Shown piece by piece: positions 4,031 through 21,507 of a stretch of DNA of 64,000 nt (position 1 is its first letter; each line of letters begins with the position of its first letter). Both the position numbers and the translations under genes were made by a program. Origin of the DNA: Teredinibacter purpureus (GTDB taxonomy: Bacteria; Pseudomonadota; Gammaproteobacteria; Pseudomonadales; Cellvibrionaceae); contig NZ_CP060092.1 of NCBI RefSeq assembly GCF_014217335.1, positions 3,303,501 to 3,367,500 on the forward strand, in the 5' to 3' direction. The notes beneath the pieces were generated by a model, which did no database searches, was not told the origin of the DNA, and saw only the letters and a list, made by a program, of their open reading frames with translations.

Positions 4031-5184
4031 GGAACCTCTGATTAACCTATCAAAAATGCGATAATAAAAACACCTCATAACTTAAGCCCGAATGATATGA
4101 AACAACAAAGCCTTGAAGCCAGTGGATTTGAAAAATACCGCAAGAAAACGCGTAAAGAGATATTTCTGGATCAAATGAACGAGATTCTTCCCTGGGAAGA
4201 GCTTTGTGAAGCGATCGAACCCTTTTATCCCAAGGCATCCAGCTTGGGTGGGCGCCCAACGATTGGTATAGAGCGCATGCTACGCATTCATTTCTTGCAG
4301 CATTGGTTTGAATTGTCTGACCCAAGTGCCGAAGAAGCACTTTATGATTCACGAGCTATGCGACAGTTTGTCGGTATCGATTTGGGCAAAGAGCCTGTTC
4401 CTGATGAAACAACAATGTGTAAATTTCGTCATTTAATGGAACGTCATAATTTGGGCGGTGAGTTATTTCGGTTGGTGAATGCGTACCTTCAAGAAAATGG
4501 CCTTAAGCTCAACCGCGGCACCATTGTGGATGCCACGATTATTGATGCACCACGCTCGACCAAAAACAAAGCGCGTCAACGAGATCCCGACATGAAATCT
4601 ACTCAGAAAGGGGGGCAATGGTATTTTGGTATGAAAGCCCATATTGGCGTTGATAGTCAAACAAAGCTAATCCATTCCGTACGGGTAACGTCCGCGAACG
4701 TTCATGACTCACAAGTACTTGGGGATTTACTTCATGGAGAGGGGCGGCGCGTCTATGGTGACTCGGCCTATACGGGACAAAAATCGCAAATAAAGGCCAG
4801 TGCACAACATGCCAAAGACTTTACTCATAAGCGTGGTCGTCGCAATCACCCACTTACAAATAAAGAGCGCCAGGAAAATCGTAACAAGTCAAAAATTCGA
4901 CCACGGGTAGAGCATTTGTTTGGTGTAATCAAACATCAATTTGGTTTTCGCAAAGTGCGTTATAAAGGTTTGGCTAAAAACGCACAAGCGGTATTTACGA
5001 AATGTGCATTAACCAATTTGTTTTTGGCTAGACGTCATTTAATGACAATTTAACAGGCGAGGTACGCCTGAAAACGGCTTATCGCCTCAATGGCGATAAG
5101 AAAACGTTAATATTTAGCTGAAATATTGTGTGCTTATAGATTTAAATAACGTTTGTAGGAACTCTCGGGTTAATCAGATGTTCC
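4031..5184 (+). mobile_element. IS5-family insertion sequence, complete (1154 bp)
   Basis: The ends are inverted repeats: GGAACCTCTGATTAACC at 4031 and, on the other strand from 5184, GGAACATCTGATTAACC (16 of 17 match). Flanking TATA copies at 4027-4030 and 5185-5188 form a 4-bp target duplication, as expected for this family. The element holds one full transposase gene on the plus strand and lies within an IS1182-family transposase gene, a nested insertion. Confidence 0.9.
4097..5053 (+). CDS. IS5-family transposase
   Basis: A complete 318-residue DDE transposase. The first catalytic Asp is in VDATIIDAP (about residue 140), the second in YGDSAYTG (about 220) and the Glu in RVEHLFGVIKHQFGF (about 275). 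The N-terminal PDETTMCKFRHLM segment is the usual DUF772-like IS5 domain. Length and motif spacing are normal, both inverted repeats are present, and no frameshift is seen, so the element is probably still able to transpose. Cut-and-paste activity and the 4-bp duplication are family knowledge; the duplication itself is visible. Confidence 0.93.
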   Translation: MKQQSLEASGFEKYRKKTRKEIFLDQMNEILPWEELCEAIEPFYPKASSLGGRPTIGIERMLRIHFLQHWFELSDPSAEEALYDSRAMRQFVGIDLGKEPVPDETTMCKFRHLMERHNLGGELFRLVNAYLQENGLKLNRGTIVDATIIDAPRSTKNKARQRDPDMKSTQKGGQWYFGMKAHIGVDSQTKLIHSVRVTSANVHDSQVLGDLLHGEGRRVYGDSAYTGQKSQIKASAQHAKDFTHKRGRRNHPLTNKERQENRNKSKIRPRVEHLFGVIKHQFGFRKVRYKGLAKNAQAVFTKCALTNLFLARRHLMTI

Positions 5185-6534
5185 TATAGGTAGTTGATAC
5201 CTGTCGGCCATGTCCCTCACGTGTGTCCGCAGATTCTGGATTACGCATGCAGTTTTTTTTATCGGACAGTGTCTGCAGTCCGTTAACTTACCTTCGAAGA
5301 ACAGTTTTATTTTTCCATTGCCGTCATCGATTTCATTCTTTAACCACAACTCATTACCTTCTGGACAGTGGCATGTTTTTTCTTTTTTGTTAAAGGTAAA
5401 TTCACTTGAAGGGATTACGGATTTAATGCCTACCACGGTATCGCGATGGCGCTTTCCATGTTTGGCTTTTTGATTACGGAAGCGCTTGTCGCGCGAGCGG
5501 AATTGATTATCAGGAATGTAAGCGTTTATACCTTCTTCTTGTAGATAAGCATCATTAGTTTCGTTTGAGAATCCGGTATCGGCGGTGACGACAATGTCCG
5601 TTTTTAATATCGACTCATGCATGCCCATTCGACGATAGCGTTTGTCGATGGATTCCAATACAGGCTTAAGGGTATGGTGTTCTTGCCCCTCGCCGAAGAC
5701 TTGGGCATCCACAATAATTTGATGTTTCTTATCCACTGTAGCCACACCGTTGTATCCCTGAATGGTGCCTTTGCTGGTCGTCATCTTCGCGGACTCGTTA
5801 TCCGTGATATTACTTTTAACTTCTTTTGGCCGTTTAGCTTGGCCCATCCGTGGGCTGGCTGTCTTTAGGAATTGGTTGATTTTTTCAAATTGCTTTTTAA
5901 GTGTTTCGGCTTCTTGTGCAACTTTTCTTTTGGTATCGCGCTCAGTGGGTTTTCGAGCATCTAAGTTTTTGTGCTCTTTTAAGCATTGCAGGATTCGTTT
6001 TCTAATTTTATCGCGTTTCTGACCCAGCTCTTTTAAGGTGCCAGAATATTCCTTTGAGGCATTTGATCGCATCTTACAACCATCAATAGCAAGTAATTCA
6101 TTGCCAATTAAACCTTGCTCGTCACACACTAGGAGCACTTGTTCAAATACCGATTCTATCGCTTTTGGGTAGCGGCTAACAAAGTTAGCAATACTGGTAA
6201 AGTGAGGAACGGAATCGCAAGAAAGTGCTTTAAAGATAATATTCGTCTCGCACTCCCACTGAATATCCCGGCTGGAGGTAATTCCACGCGAATAGGCAAA
6301 CAAAATTATTTTTAGCAGTATTGCGGGATCGTAGGCAGAACGTCCACCACTGTCATTTTTGTAATGATCATAGAACGCAAAGAGGTCAATGTGGTTATCG
6401 ATTAGGTGGGAAACAGTAAACTCGAAGGTATTAGGCTTTATCTGCTGCTCAAAATTAATTACCACCATGGCATCTTGGTTGTAATTATGCTTTTTGAAGT
6501 TGCGCATAGTGATCTCCTCCGATTTGAGATCCAT
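5185..6534 (-). pseudogene. IS1182-family transposase, N-terminal part (interrupted)
   Basis: About 450 residues of an IS1182-family transposase. It has the N-terminal InsH-like domain (SAYDPAILLKIILFAYSRG, then VPHFTSIANF), a central coiled region, a first catalytic Asp in LLAIDGCKMRSNAS, a second in VVTADTGFSNE, and a cysteine-rich HCPEGN / CRHCPIKKTAC block. Reading ends four residues inside the inserted IS5 element. The missing catalytic Glu is on the 3794-4030 fragment, so the protein must be inactive. The start may instead be the second Met at 6507 (MRNFKKHN). Confidence 0.85.
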
Positions 6535-13411: not shown

Positions 13412-13702
13412 TTAGCCCATTGCGAAGCTATTTGTAAGCCCGCCAACAGCCAAAAATAGAAGAGCTAGCTTACCGTACACTCCGATTTCTACTTTTTTCC
13501 ACTCGCTTAAGTTTACTATAGCGATGTTTCCAGTAGCAGCTTCAGTAAACAGAAGGGCGATACCTATATAGGAAATTACCTGCGGAATTAAACCGATAGA
13601 AAAACCCATACCCGCGTAAGTTGAGTATGCTCCGAGAGCAACCATTACTAAAGCAAAAACTAAGAAATAAGTAGCCTTTTTTCGGGCGACATTTTTACTC
13701 AT
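13412..13702 (-). CDS. Cassette 14: small membrane protein, unknown
   Basis: A 96-residue protein with two or three hydrophobic segments: TYFLVFALVMVALGAYSTYAG, FSIGLIPQVISYIGIALLFT and YGKLALLFLAVGGLTN. The start at 13702 (MSKNVARKK) is preferred because a GGAAAGAG ribosome site precedes it; the two upstream in-frame ATGs fall on or past the attC edge. No family is recognised. Confidence 0.6.
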   Translation of the reverse strand: MSKNVARKKATYFLVFALVMVALGAYSTYAGMGFSIGLIPQVISYIGIALLFTEAATGNIAIVNLSEWKKVEIGVYGKLALLFLAVGGLTNSFAMG

Positions 13703-13724
13703 ACTCTCTTTCCTTGATTTATGC

Positions 13725-13817
13725 ATAACTCCTTGCTCAGCGGCGTGGTGAGCTTGGCGGATTTTTTGAGTATTTTTCAAAAAAGATGACAAGCTTACTA
13801 CGTCCGATGCAGCAATT
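13725..13817 (-). repeat. attC site of cassette 13, broken at its R'' core by an IS110 element
   Basis: The arms are nearly complete: GGTGAGCTTGg..TTTTTTGA pairs with TCAAAAAAGATGaCAAGCTTACT, and TTGCT..GCGG pairs with the CCGatgcAGCAA side. The R'' core expected right after AGCAATT is missing here; the bases GTTATGG lie at 15514-15520 beyond the inserted element. Removing 13818-15513 rejoins a standard attC end. Confidence 0.8.
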
Positions 13818-13829
13818 TATAGTTTGACC

Positions 13830-14019
13830 GTTCCTGTTTTACGGTAGTTTCTCTTTCGGTGAGATTAGTGGGAACATGCTTCTTCTGGTTACGAATATGG
13901 AGCTTTAAACTTTTAAAGATCATAACAATACTTTCGAACCAGAAGAAGTCTTTCGTTTCAAAACGCATACTCAGGGAATGTCGTTGCACCGACTTTCTAT
14001 AATGCCTGCGCGAAACGAA
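13830..14019 (+). ncRNA. Candidate IS110 bridge RNA (target and donor loops)
   Basis: Seen by eye on the plus strand: a 5' stem-loop closed by GTTCC (13830-13834) and GGAAC (13871-13875). A first large loop is closed by a perfect 12-bp stem, CTTCTTCTGGTT (13879-13890) with AACCAGAAGAAG (13937-13948), and holds an inner CTTTAAA/TTTAAAG hairpin. A second loop is closed by TTCGTTTC (13952-13959) with GAAACGAA (14012-14019). The 3' side of loop 1 carries CATAACAATAC (13921-13931), the exact complement of the right junction at 15509-15519. The 3' side of loop 2 carries CTATAA (13997-14002), the complement of the left end TTATAG (13817-13822). Order, position upstream of the recombinase and size fit IS621-type bridge RNAs. 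Transcript ends are guesses. Confidence 0.72.
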
Positions 14020-14062
14020 TTCATTGCATGCCCCCTTGCACCATACTCTAAGGAGATAGAGG

Positions 14063-15325
14063 ATGAAAGAACCGAAAGTTTCAAATTTTTCCCTATTAGT
14101 CGGCATTGATTGGGCCGACCAAAAACATGATATCTGTGAACGCTCCGTGGATGGCAAGAACCAGCGATTACTTGTGATATCGAGCAAACCGGATGCCATT
14201 GATGATTGGGCGAACTCGCTTAAAAAGCGCTACCCTGATAAACCCGTTGCCGTTTGCTGCGAGCTTAAGAAAGGACCGCTGGTTTACGCTCTTCTTAAAT
14301 ATTCTCATATTGTCATTTTCCCCGCCAACCCCGCAACGGTCTCCCAATATCGGAAAGCCTTTGCCACTAGTGGCGCAAAAGACGACCCCTCCGACGCTAT
14401 GATTCAAGCGGATTTCTTAATGCTCCATATGAACAAACTTCGAATGCTCGAGCCAGAATCTGCATCGATTCGCGCTTTAGCGCAGCTATTAGAGACTCGT
14501 CGCAAAATGGTTCAAAACCGCGTGGACATTTGCAATAAAATCATTGCTGCTCTAAAAAATCATTTTCCTTTAGTTTTGGATATATTTCCAGATAGGGACA
14601 CTACCATCTTTTGCGATTTCCTAGACCGATGGCCTACATTAAAAGAGGCCAAAAAAGCCCGAAAGAGCACACTTCTGAGATTTTTCAATAATCACAATGC
14701 ACGCTATCCGGACATTAACGAAAAACGTATCAGAGACATTAAAAACGCTGTGCCGCTTACTGACGATTTTGGCGTAATTGAGCCCAGCGTCATTTTAGTC
14801 AATATTCTTGTGAGCCAGCTAAGACTTTTGATTGAAGCTATCGATATATTGAACAAGGAGATAAAAACACGGTATCGTGTCACGAAGGACCATTTCATTT
14901 TCGACAGCTTTCCTGGTGCGGGCCCGCAAATGGCTCCTCGAATTTTAGTCGCCTTTGGCGAGAACAGAGAGCGCTATGAAACTTGCGAAGAACTTCAACG
15001 GCTATCCGGTGTTGCGCCTGTACTCGAACGCAGCGGTAATCAAGAATGGGTTCACTGGCGGCGAAGTTGCCCTACGTTTCTAAGGCAAACGTTTATTGAG
15101 TGGGCCGGGCTAAGTATTCGATATTCTTTTTGGGCTCAAGCCTACTATGACCAGCAAAAAGCTAAAGGTAAACACCATCAAACGATAATTCGGGCACTGG
15201 CTTTTAAATGGATTCGTATTGCTTTTAGGTGCTGGAAAACAAAAACACCCTATGACGAAACAAAATATTTAAATGCTCTTAAAAAACGAAATTCGCCTCT
15301 GTTGAATTTTGCAGTACAAAGTTAA
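14063..15325 (+). CDS. IS110-family transposase (DEDD recombinase)
   Basis: A 420-residue protein with the two-domain IS110 layout. The N-terminal RuvC-like DEDD domain has the first Asp in GIDWADQKHD (about residue 15), a Glu in CCELKKG (about 69) and DDPSDA near 110. The C-terminal domain has the FPGAGPQMAPRIL motif (about 285-297), and a serine in the following conserved region is expected to be the nucleophile. An AAGGAGAT ribosome site precedes the ATG. Length is normal and no frameshift is seen, so it is probably active. Such enzymes use an RNA from the element's own non-coding end to choose the target. That RNA candidate lies just upstream. Confidence 0.93.
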   Translation: MKEPKVSNFSLLVGIDWADQKHDICERSVDGKNQRLLVISSKPDAIDDWANSLKKRYPDKPVAVCCELKKGPLVYALLKYSHIVIFPANPATVSQYRKAFATSGAKDDPSDAMIQADFLMLHMNKLRMLEPESASIRALAQLLETRRKMVQNRVDICNKIIAALKNHFPLVLDIFPDRDTTIFCDFLDRWPTLKEAKKARKSTLLRFFNNHNARYPDINEKRIRDIKNAVPLTDDFGVIEPSVILVNILVSQLRLLIEAIDILNKEIKTRYRVTKDHFIFDSFPGAGPQMAPRILVAFGENRERYETCEELQRLSGVAPVLERSGNQEWVHWRRSCPTFLRQTFIEWAGLSIRYSFWAQAYYDQQKAKGKHHQTIIRALAFKWIRIAFRCWKTKTPYDETKYLNALKKRNSPLLNFAVQS

Positions 15326-15501
15326 AACCTGAGCATAAGCTAAGCAACAAACACATTATCGGTACTAACAATATTGTTGGTTGTCGCAACAGTCTGCGCA
15401 TGTAAAATAATTACCCGACATTATTCTTATCCGATTTTTAACAAACCGACCTCCTGAGGCATTAATACAAACATTTATGAAATAGTGCTTGACTGTCCTA
15501 C

Positions 15502-15972
15502 TCAGGGCGTATTGTTATGGACTTTTATGCACAAAAAATAAGCCCATGCAATTAAAATAAACTGCAAGGGTACTCGAATTAATAGATAAATAGGCCCCCA
15601 TTGATGACCGCCAAGACCTATACTATTGAATGCTGCATAAATATTGGCTGGAAAAAATATTACAAGGACGATGATTGCAGATTTTGCTGCATTGACCTGA
15701 AATTTTGGAATAAATAAAGCGATCCCTATCACCACCTCTAGCAAACCCGTCAAATAAATTACCGCTTGTCGAAATGGAACCCAAATAGGTAGCATTTCTA
15801 CCATACTCTCAGTTTTAACAATGTGCCCTATGGAGAAAAATATAAACGCTATACCCAGCCCCCAGAAAGTGAACAAACATACATTTAATTCTAAGCCTCT
15901 TACTTTAGAAATAAGAAAGGCCACAACTAAAGGTAAGGTTAATAAAATTAGTACGATTATTGGAGTAGTCAT
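15502..15972 (-). CDS. Cassette 13: DoxX-like membrane protein
   Basis: A 156-residue protein with four membrane segments in a DoxX-like arrangement: MTTPIIVLILLTLPLVVAF, CLFTFWGLGIAFIFFSIGHI, AVIYLTGLLEVVIGIALFIP (the LTGLLEVVIGIAL block is typical of the family) and LLIRVPLQFILIAWAYFL. DoxX-type proteins are linked to redox or sulfur stress in some bacteria; no such context exists here. The start at 15972 excludes attC-encoded residues. The last few codons (TP-stop) lie inside the IS110 element, so the insertion replaced the native C-terminal tail. Confidence 0.7.
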   Translation of the reverse strand: MTTPIIVLILLTLPLVVAFLISKVRGLELNVCLFTFWGLGIAFIFFSIGHIVKTESMVEMLPIWVPFRQAVIYLTGLLEVVIGIALFIPKFQVNAAKSAIIVLVIFFPANIYAAFNSIGLGGHQWGPIYLLIRVPLQFILIAWAYFLCIKVHNNTP

Positions 15973-17198: not shown

Positions 17199-17206
17199 TT
17201 TGCCAC

Positions 17207-17312
17207 CTAACGCAGAGCTAAATTGCAGTTTTGGAGGAGCGTTTTTGTGGTAGTGTTTTTTACCACAAAAAGAAGCGACGGAAAAACTGTCAATTTGAGC
17301 GTATTGTTATGG
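17207..17312 (-). repeat. attC site of cassette 10 (two-gene cassette)
   Basis: The edges are CTAACGCAG (17207) and GTATTGTTATGG. The arms AAATTGcAGTTTT and AAAACTGtCAATTT pair, then TTTTTGTGGTA and TACCACAAAAA. It closes the DUF262 / nucleotidyltransferase cassette. Confidence 0.87.
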
Positions 17313-20676: not shown

Positions 20677-21055
20677 TGTACCAAACACCTACTCACTTTT
20701 AACTACGCTGCTACGCCAATTTCTGTATTTGTTTAAAAAGCCTGAAGCTTTGGTTAGACCCAACTATAACCGTGGGATAGCCAAAACAGAAGGCATAAAA
20801 TTGACCCAAAACAACAAGTGATTATGGCAACCAACAGAAAGGAACAAACGGGAGGAATAAGCCGCAAACTCCCTTTGCTAGGTAAAGCTTGGATGCGCTT
20901 TTTTGCAACGAAGCTTTACCGGATTACCAAATCTACCTTTTTCGAAGCACGTTGTAAGCGACCAAAGGTGACTTACCTAAACTTGATGGAGGGTAACGAA
21001 TTTAGGAACACCCTACTGAAACTTAACTACACACCAAACTTTTTTTAATAGACAA
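20677..21055 (-). other. Cassette 6: no minus-strand gene
   Basis: The edges agree (TTACTTGT at one end, ACAAGTAA at the other), so it is a real cassette of about 380 bp between attC sites. I find no credible minus-strand reading frame. The only candidate is a plus-strand frame at 20824-21048 (ATG, about 74 residues, very basic, ending just short of the attC), opposite to the array. It may carry a promoter or RNA instead. Confidence 0.55.
20824..21048 (+). CDS. Possible reverse-oriented basic small protein in cassette 6
   Basis: A 74-residue plus-strand frame starting MATNRKEQTGG, rich in Lys and Arg (LLGKAWMRFFATKLYRITK). It has no signal or membrane segment and no recognised family. It runs against the direction of all other cassette genes. 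Reading frames of this size arise by chance, so support is weak; the main argument is that it fills most of an otherwise empty cassette. Confidence 0.25.
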   Translation: MATNRKEQTGGISRKLPLLGKAWMRFFATKLYRITKSTFFEARCKRPKVTYLNLMEGNEFRNTLLKLNYTPNFF

Positions 21056-21190
21056 GTAACGCTGAGCTAAACGGCGCACAATGCGTAGCTGGTTTGTGCA
21101 ATAATTTGCGAAGCAAATGCACAAACAAGCGTAGCATTGGGCGTCCAGTGTAGGCCGAAGGCCGAAACGGTGTTTTAGCGTATTGTTATG
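21056..21190 (-). repeat. attC site of cassette 5
   Basis: The edges are GTAACGCTGAG (21056) and GTATTGTTATG (21190). The arms GCACAATGCGtAGC and GTAGCATTGGGCGTCC pair. Inner TTTGTGCA and TGCACAAA pair, with a GGCCgaaGGCC hairpin. It is the longest site in the array. Confidence 0.85.
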
Positions 21191-21507
21191 TAAGTGAACA
21201 CCGAACCACCCCATACCTAAACCACCGACAATTTACAGTTAGAAATGGTACTACTGGTACACTGCCAATAGAAACCCTAAAGCAGCTAAGCTTCGACGGT
21301 CTGACCTACGACCGTAGGCAGCCTAACCAATACCACCTACAGCGAACTAAGAAACAATTGCGCCAGCGAAGGATGGACTAGGTTGGCGACATGAATAACG
21401 TTACACCAACAACTTACTTATAACGAAGCTTGCCCGAGAATTTAAGTGGCATACCCGCCTCGCTTACTACATTACAAAATAAATAACTTAAAAAGGGCCA
21501 ACGGCAC
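21191..21507 (-). other. Cassette 5: no recognisable gene
   Basis: About 317 bp lie between two attC sites with matching TTATG/CATAA edges. Stop codons interrupt both strands; no frame above 60 codons makes sense. It could be a decayed gene, a non-coding RNA or a promoter-carrying cassette. A CTACGACCGTAGG palindrome lies near 21306-21318. Confidence 0.5.

Follow-up and report, generated by a model that had tools for sequence, protein, structure and literature searches.

The closest described relatives of the element analysed here belong to the IS110 and IS1111 groups of insertion sequences. The bridge RNA of IS621, an IS110-group element, consists of a 5' stem-loop followed by a target loop and a donor loop (Durrant et al., 2024; PMC11208160). 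For the IS1111 group, targeting of integron attC sites has been published; its guide RNA usually lies downstream of tnp and, in the members tested, carries the top-strand match in its 5' part (PMC11187229). Positions 13830-14019 of the window, by which we mean the whole 64-kb stretch of Teredinibacter purpureus DNA under analysis (C1:3303501-3367500), very probably encode the bridge RNA of an IS110-type element, whose cycle, as reconstructed from sequence, would comprise a circular form, the recombinase, loop pairing and insertion into attC (Table 1).

The likeness to the IS621/IS110 group extends to the location of the RNA in the left end, the succession of 5' stem-loop (in the window element, predicted by the single-sequence fold), target loop and donor loop, the presence of guides for each strand of the target and of the donor, a sigma-70 promoter at the circle junction (predicted for the window element) and a DEDD recombinase with a Transposase_20 domain (PMC11208160). 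The IS621-type layout claimed in the preliminary description agrees with the published order. By contrast, the recombinase has 420 aa, compared with 328 aa in the solved chain of IS621, the two aligning well in the C-terminal part only (E 4e-6), and the window element is distinguished by conserved ACGAAT...TTCG loop closures, a TT core and its attC target.

The recombinase gene is the only gene of the 1,695-bp element and is flanked by 244 nt of noncoding DNA upstream and 188 nt downstream. Its product matches the Pfam families DEDD_Tnp_IS110 (E 7.1e-25) and Transposase_20 (E 6.2e-12), both above the curated cut-offs. Among the sequences of solved structures, just two matches were obtained at E <= 0.01, namely, the recombinases of ISCro4 (2.2e-6) and IS621 (8wt6). 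Both alignments are mainly C-terminal and include an aligned SG motif, which holds the catalytic serine in IS621.

Table 1. Coordinates of the element, its predicted bridge RNA and guides, and related attC sites (window positions).
Feature	Positions	Strand	Remarks
IS110-type insertion sequence	13819..15513	+	1,695 bp; left end ATAG..., right end ...GTATT
Left junction	13817..13822	+	TT core and left end ATAG; matched by right donor guide
Predicted bridge-RNA locus	13830..14019	+	5' stem-loop, target-binding loop, donor-binding loop
5' stem-loop	13830..13875	+	single-sequence fold; outside the consensus structure
Target-binding loop 1	13878..13949	+	13-bp stem 13878-13890/13937-13949, inner hairpin; consensus helices 1 and 2
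Left target guide TGGAGCTTT	13898..13906	+	pairs with bottom strand, L'' side of attC
Right target guide CATAACAATAC	13921..13931	+	pairs with top strand, attC R'' box and spacer
Donor-binding loop 2	13952..14019	+	8-bp stem 13952-13959/14012-14019; consensus helices 3 and 4
Left donor guide TACTCAGGG	13968..13976	+	identical to right end 15499-15507
Right donor guide CTATAAT	13997..14003	+	complementary to ATTATAG, which spans the circle junction
Transposase/recombinase, 420 aa	14063..15325	+	DEDD_Tnp_IS110 and Transposase_20
Right end	15489..15513	+	TTGACT (-35-like; putative promoter part), CTCAGGGCGTATT
Right junction GTATTGTTATG	15509..15519	+	element end and attC R'' remnant
Predicted intact attC	17205..17312	-	R'' end CATAACAATAC, same as right target guide, 11/11
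Second predicted intact attC	21054..21191	-	exact 11-mer at 21180-21190

The stems, loops and named sequences of the preliminary description were all found in their places, the loop-1 stem comprising 12 Watson-Crick pairs and one G-U pair. Folding of 13830-14062 yielded z = -3.77 and that of the loop-1 domain z = -5.18, with none of 200 shuffles as good in either case, and the loop-2 domain gave z = -2.50 (5/200 as good). We then have to consider a chance fold or an attenuator of the transposase gene, the complementarities being leftovers of insertion into similar sequences. The modest excess of loop 2 alone over its shuffles speaks for this explanation, but compensated pairs across phyla, loop closures with unvarying ACGAAT and TCG and the tracking of targets by guides described below (0/20,000 permutations) speak against it and render it vanishingly improbable.

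The consensus structure was derived from 16 aligned upstream regions of our choice, originating from the window, other Gammaproteobacteria, Paraburkholderia, Cupriavidus, one Chlorobiaceae, Desulfobulbaceae, Acidobacteriaceae and Lentisphaera; the cyanobacterial regions are outside this alignment because their loop anchor differs. In the consensus, 93.9% of cells are paired and 21 of the 30 pairs are compensated, so that the structural covariation among homologues, named as a check in the preliminary description, is indeed present. The covariation score was 0.570, compared with 0.233 in shuffled alignments (0/500 as high) and 0.088-0.150 when the structure was slid by 1-3 columns, the latter comparison favouring the unslid version, which was derived from the very alignment on which it was scored. 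Compensated cells numbered 90 versus 28 in shuffles, a difference hard to explain by the shared alignment and the close kin among its rows (L009/L010 and L081/L082/L083). Across the 16 regions, 27 columns are invariant, most of them in the donor words CTCAG and CTATA and in the ACGAAT...TCG closures of the loops. At Rfam gathering thresholds, no family matched the bridge-RNA locus, and in the 64-kb window only three tRNAs were recovered.

In loop 2, the complementarity of CTATAA, on the 3' side, to the left end TTATAG was confirmed, reading CTATAA(T); TACTCAGGG, previously regarded as a weak match of the 5' side, is instead the left donor guide itself, the same sequence as that of the right end. 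In the relatives, where the element ends were recognised by CTCAG and by TATAG or TATGG, the loop-2 guides correspond to the ends of their own element and vary along with these ends. Across 23 lineages, the three bases that follow CTCAG in the RNA and in the right end agree at 55 of 69 positions, compared with 29.1 when shuffled (0/20,000). Four cyanobacterial lineages combine a TATGG left end with CCATA in the RNA; the RNA of the other 19 carries CTATA, with a TATAG left-end candidate in 18 of these (the left end of L080 was not found). The crossover bases of the window element are the TT at 13817-13818 and 15512-15513, and its joined ends read TTGACT-18-TATAGT, a promoter-like sequence from which transcription is predicted to start near 13830, as published for IS621. 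Upstream of the RNA, the stretch 13700-13829 contains no sigma-70-like site; expression would depend on the circle junction or on external promoters.

The element resides in a cassette array, the attC sites of which lie on the minus strand. We aligned 19 of them located between 7 and 23 kb, chosen by eye from a loose scan with 30 minus-strand and 26 plus-strand matches; an attC covariance model comprised 13 pairs only and was left unused. All 19 aligned attC ends contain TAACAA. Next to the array, no full integron integrase was detected: genes above the TIGR02249 cut-off are those at C1:1191879 and C1:3762283, the closer being ~395 kb from the cassettes. The same cassette is present, uninterrupted, at C1:2106635 (L003), with a right arm identical at 480/480 and a left arm at 87/90 positions, and this empty site reads GCAGTAATTT followed by GTTATGG. 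Accordingly, the insertion separates the R'' box of attC from L'', the overlap being TT and no bases being duplicated. Because three of the 90 left-arm bases differ, including one at a distance of 6 nt from the junction, L003 is not the very parent site.

The genome holds only two copies of the element, so in-genome target statistics are thin. The second copy (L002) has the same ends and occupies another attC at the same position within the site; all four mismatches of the 1,716-bp match fall in the left flank and the two elements are, hence, identical. When the flanks of either copy were rejoined, attC folds were restored, with arms better than 60 of 60 shuffles. On this sequence evidence, both copies in the T. 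purpureus genome can be assigned with certainty to attC targets, and the proposal that the loops are programmed for integron attC ends is supported.

The right target guide CATAACAATAC is the exact complement of 15509-15519, 17301-17311 and 21180-21190. Its 11-base match to the right junction, noted in the preliminary description, is exact, but three of these bases are on the element side; all 11 are target sequence in the two intact attC ends. Exact occurrences of GTATTGTTATG in the window number four (the RNA, the right junction and these two attC ends), compared with about 0.03-0.05 exact matches expected by chance according to our estimate. With one mismatch allowed, the same four were found, all mismatch-free; the bare count is not decisive, however, because shuffles averaged 1.66 and seven of 100 contained at least four. 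Across the 19 aligned attC ends, among which the site at 21180 is not included, identity to the right guide is 6-9/11 in 18 and 11/11 in one. The left target guide, called unclear before, can now be placed at TGGAGCTTT, which by eye matches the left flank of L002, TGCAGCTTT, at 8/9 positions and that of the window element, TGCAGCAAT, at 6/9. An offset of this guide by several nucleotides from the core was also considered and dropped, the match in L002 running right up to the core.

In the relatives, the left target guide was parsed as following the first ACGAAT (ACGACT in the cyanobacterial elements) and the right one as preceding a TCG. The tracking test scored 28 insertions and permuted 20 lineages, each represented by one insertion; loci with missing ends, duplicates and loci with a different loop anchor were excluded (L005, L006, L011, L012, L013, L019, L020, L037, L044, L047, L051, L052, L080 and L081), as were planctomycete and other distant loci. 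The best 7-mer of the left guide scored 6.35 against its own flank and 4.46 in mismatched pairs, and the longest match of the right guide was 8.1 versus 4.16, values reached in none of 20,000 permutations for either guide. The same held (0/20,000) within the nine attC-type lineages alone and within the 11 others alone. The change of loops along with targets, which the preliminary description had set as a check, is therefore seen for both target guides. With the element bases excluded, the right guide still scored 5.57 on flank bases versus 3.5 (0/20,000), in a set of 21 lineages to which L080 was added for its right side only and in which seven lineages score 4, near the mismatched mean. Scores are weak for the left guide (4-5 of 7) in five of the 28 insertions (L034, L055, L063, L079 and L082) and just 4 for the right guide in two (L036 and L059).

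Individual elements illustrate this correspondence. For instance, in Lentisphaera marina, the guide is TGGCGCTCCT and the left flank ends in GCGCTCC in five of the six scored insertions and in TACTCC in L034. An element in a Chlorobiaceae metagenome-assembled genome (MAG) has the guide GACCTTACTT and the left flank GACCTTACT, and the complement of its right guide equals its right junction, CTACTGTA, as is the case for GCAAAGGGGAA in a Colwellia element (L078). The L. marina element, present at seven loci (L033-L038 and L049), constitutes a natural multi-copy test set for bridge RNA.

The position of both genome copies in foldable attC sites, at the same point, speaks for an alternative in which the recombinase would recognise the folded attC hairpin or attC-bound integrase, with the RNA acting on the donor only or being a leader of the tnp mRNA. 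The target guides, however, follow the flanks in attC-type and other lineages alike, and the right guide follows changes of the target, such as G for T before GTTATG in L055. Moreover, among the 13 insertions that end in GTTA on the right and have both flanks, six gave folds with at least 19 arm pairs (L001, L002, L004, L008, L017 and L058), but attC arms surpassed all 60 shuffles in only four (L001, L002, L008 and L017), the shuffle ranks of the remaining nine extending from 4/60 to 54/60. Consequently, the attC fold seems not to be needed, recognition of the hairpin or of bound integrase appears quite improbable, and it is probably the linear sequence that the RNA reads. An attC target is secure for the T. 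purpureus genome and some relatives; others may use stray R''-like sequence, consistent with linear reading by the RNA.

The element might, alternatively, belong to the established IS1111-attC group, which comprises ISKpn4, ISPst6, ISPa25 and ISPa21, and hence be described already. The reports on this group describe the same target class, RNA-guided insertion at one attC end and disruption of the cassette site (PMC11187229, PMC11616780). By contrast, the RNA of the window element lies on the opposite side of tnp, upstream rather than downstream, and its top-strand guide follows the bottom-strand one on the 3' side, as reported for the IS110-type ISEc21 (PMC11187229). Furthermore, the transposase has 420 aa as opposed to 330-350 aa, and the long subterminal inverted repeats of that group, of 11-13 bp, are absent: between the outer 50 bases of the two ends, the longest exact inverted repeat is 5 bp and the best inverted-repeat 11-mer matches at 8/11. 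By virtue of these sequence features, the element is of the IS110 type and set apart from the IS1111-attC group as published, membership of which is highly improbable. Tetu and Holmes in 2008 and Post and Hall in 2009 are also said to have covered that group. ISEc21 shares the upstream RNA and the guide order; its target is, however, an IS3-family transposase gene (PMC11187229), and its transposase is barely alignable to that of the window element (13/39 identical, E 0.002). The enterobacterial plasmid element ISEsa2 and its relatives have transposases ~44% identical to that of the window element and the same RNA layout and anchors, but their guides and flanks correspond to a non-attC target (GAGCGAGA / GAAGCGGACA).

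Close relatives of the element are sparse in the genomes covered, although many proteins of 62-88% identity were recorded. At E 1e-60, they were found in one of 58 related genomes and, at E 1e-90, in three of 390 genomes of the order and one of 369 of the class, each count including T. purpureus itself. The scan of genome contigs for relatives returned 49 loci; that of viral contigs returned none. Of the 27 proteins, 25 were included in a tree (L055, with an in-frame stop, and L019, with a broken frame, were omitted), which is rooted at the midpoint and has mixed support, with 12 of the 22 inner branches starred. An attC-type right end, a label borne by 11 rows and assigned from the right junction only in L005, L006 and L080, requires three changes on this tree compared with 8.4 when shuffled (0/500 as low), although such clustering is made easy by near copies; bootstrap trees require 3-4 changes and the starred branches force two. 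We presume that the right end of L006, GTTGGGC in place of GTTA, is an attC end. The label is found in a Colwellia-Pseudoalteromonas-Thalassotalea group that contains the window element, a cyanobacterial group, a Patescibacteria MAG, a Thiodictyon plasmid and a Hydrogenophilales MAG, and other targets are used by ISEsa2 and the Rahnella, Paraburkholderia and Cupriavidus elements.

On balance, we lean towards the view that an attC-targeting set of IS110-type elements, spanning Alteromonadales-type Gammaproteobacteria, Cyanobacteria and a Patescibacteria MAG, reads R''-L'' through loop 1 as linear double-stranded DNA, that these elements became integron specialists independently of the IS1111-attC group, and that the ISEsa2/Paraburkholderia subclade was retargeted away from attC. 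If so, RNA-guided transposition would have converged repeatedly on integron recombination sites as its target.

Most likely, judging from the guides and insertion sites, the element relies on base-pairing of its RNA to insert into cassette arrays and disrupt them. It would be excised as a circle, the joined ends of which would form the promoter and drive synthesis of the bridge RNA, to be bound by the DEDD recombinase. Loop 2 would then pair with the circle junction, where the left donor guide would bind CTCAGGG of the right end and the right one ATTATAG. Loop 1 would pair with attC, the left guide on the L'' side and the right guide on the spacer and the R'' box, TAACAA. By recombination at TT, the element would be placed between R'' and L'' with no duplicated bases and would sever the R'' box from the attC of the cassette, the mobility of which would be lost; each insertion should, thus, freeze one cassette. 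With its conserved TAACAA end, the attC of every cassette is a possible landing site. The element links RNA-programmed transposition with integron cassette dynamics, two fields of study, and the natural series of target loops and targets, attC and other, makes the pairing rules of bridge RNA testable without design.

A search of the literature on IS110/IS1111 with attC, integrons and bridge or seek RNA, with most subscription papers and all bioRxiv preprints outside its scope, revealed, among the papers listed, none recognised as describing an IS110-type element that targets attC. PMC9229058 reports IS110 elements in Shewanella cassette regions, none within attC, and PMC11089894 lists IS110 (IS1111 group) among the transposases of cassette arrays. 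The IS110 element at attC in PMC11616780 is ISPa21, of the IS1111 group; on this point, the relevant passages of PMC12444791 contain only citations of IS1111 papers, and those of PMC8527097 nothing on IS110-type attC targeting. Large sets of bridge-RNA predictions may hold relatives that went unremarked. The kind of bridge RNA is known, but an attC-specific element with machinery of the IS110 type appears to be undescribed in the literature covered.

Several other recombinase and transposase genes were noticed. Two more transposase-like genes (4097-5053 and 5170-6534, from their translations by eye) adjoin the start of the cassette array in the window. One gene is present in five copies that score nearly equally in TIGR02249 (88.2-88.5 bits), at C1:3300011 (L086 1444-3413), 2119889, 2665378, 3548706 and 3685226; in L086, it is a tyrosine recombinase gene (300 aa), after which comes that of a transposase (360 aa), IS91-like by eye, and one of the five lies 1.3 kb from the second copy of the element and another 13 kb from L003. 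In the flank of L057, there is an annotated IS91 transposase/integrase pair. On a plasmid of Pseudoalteromonas sp. Bsw20308 (L058 1-3364), two other annotated IS110-family transposase genes are located less than 4 kb upstream of the related element, and the same plasmid carries a partial copy (L064) matching residues 108-420.
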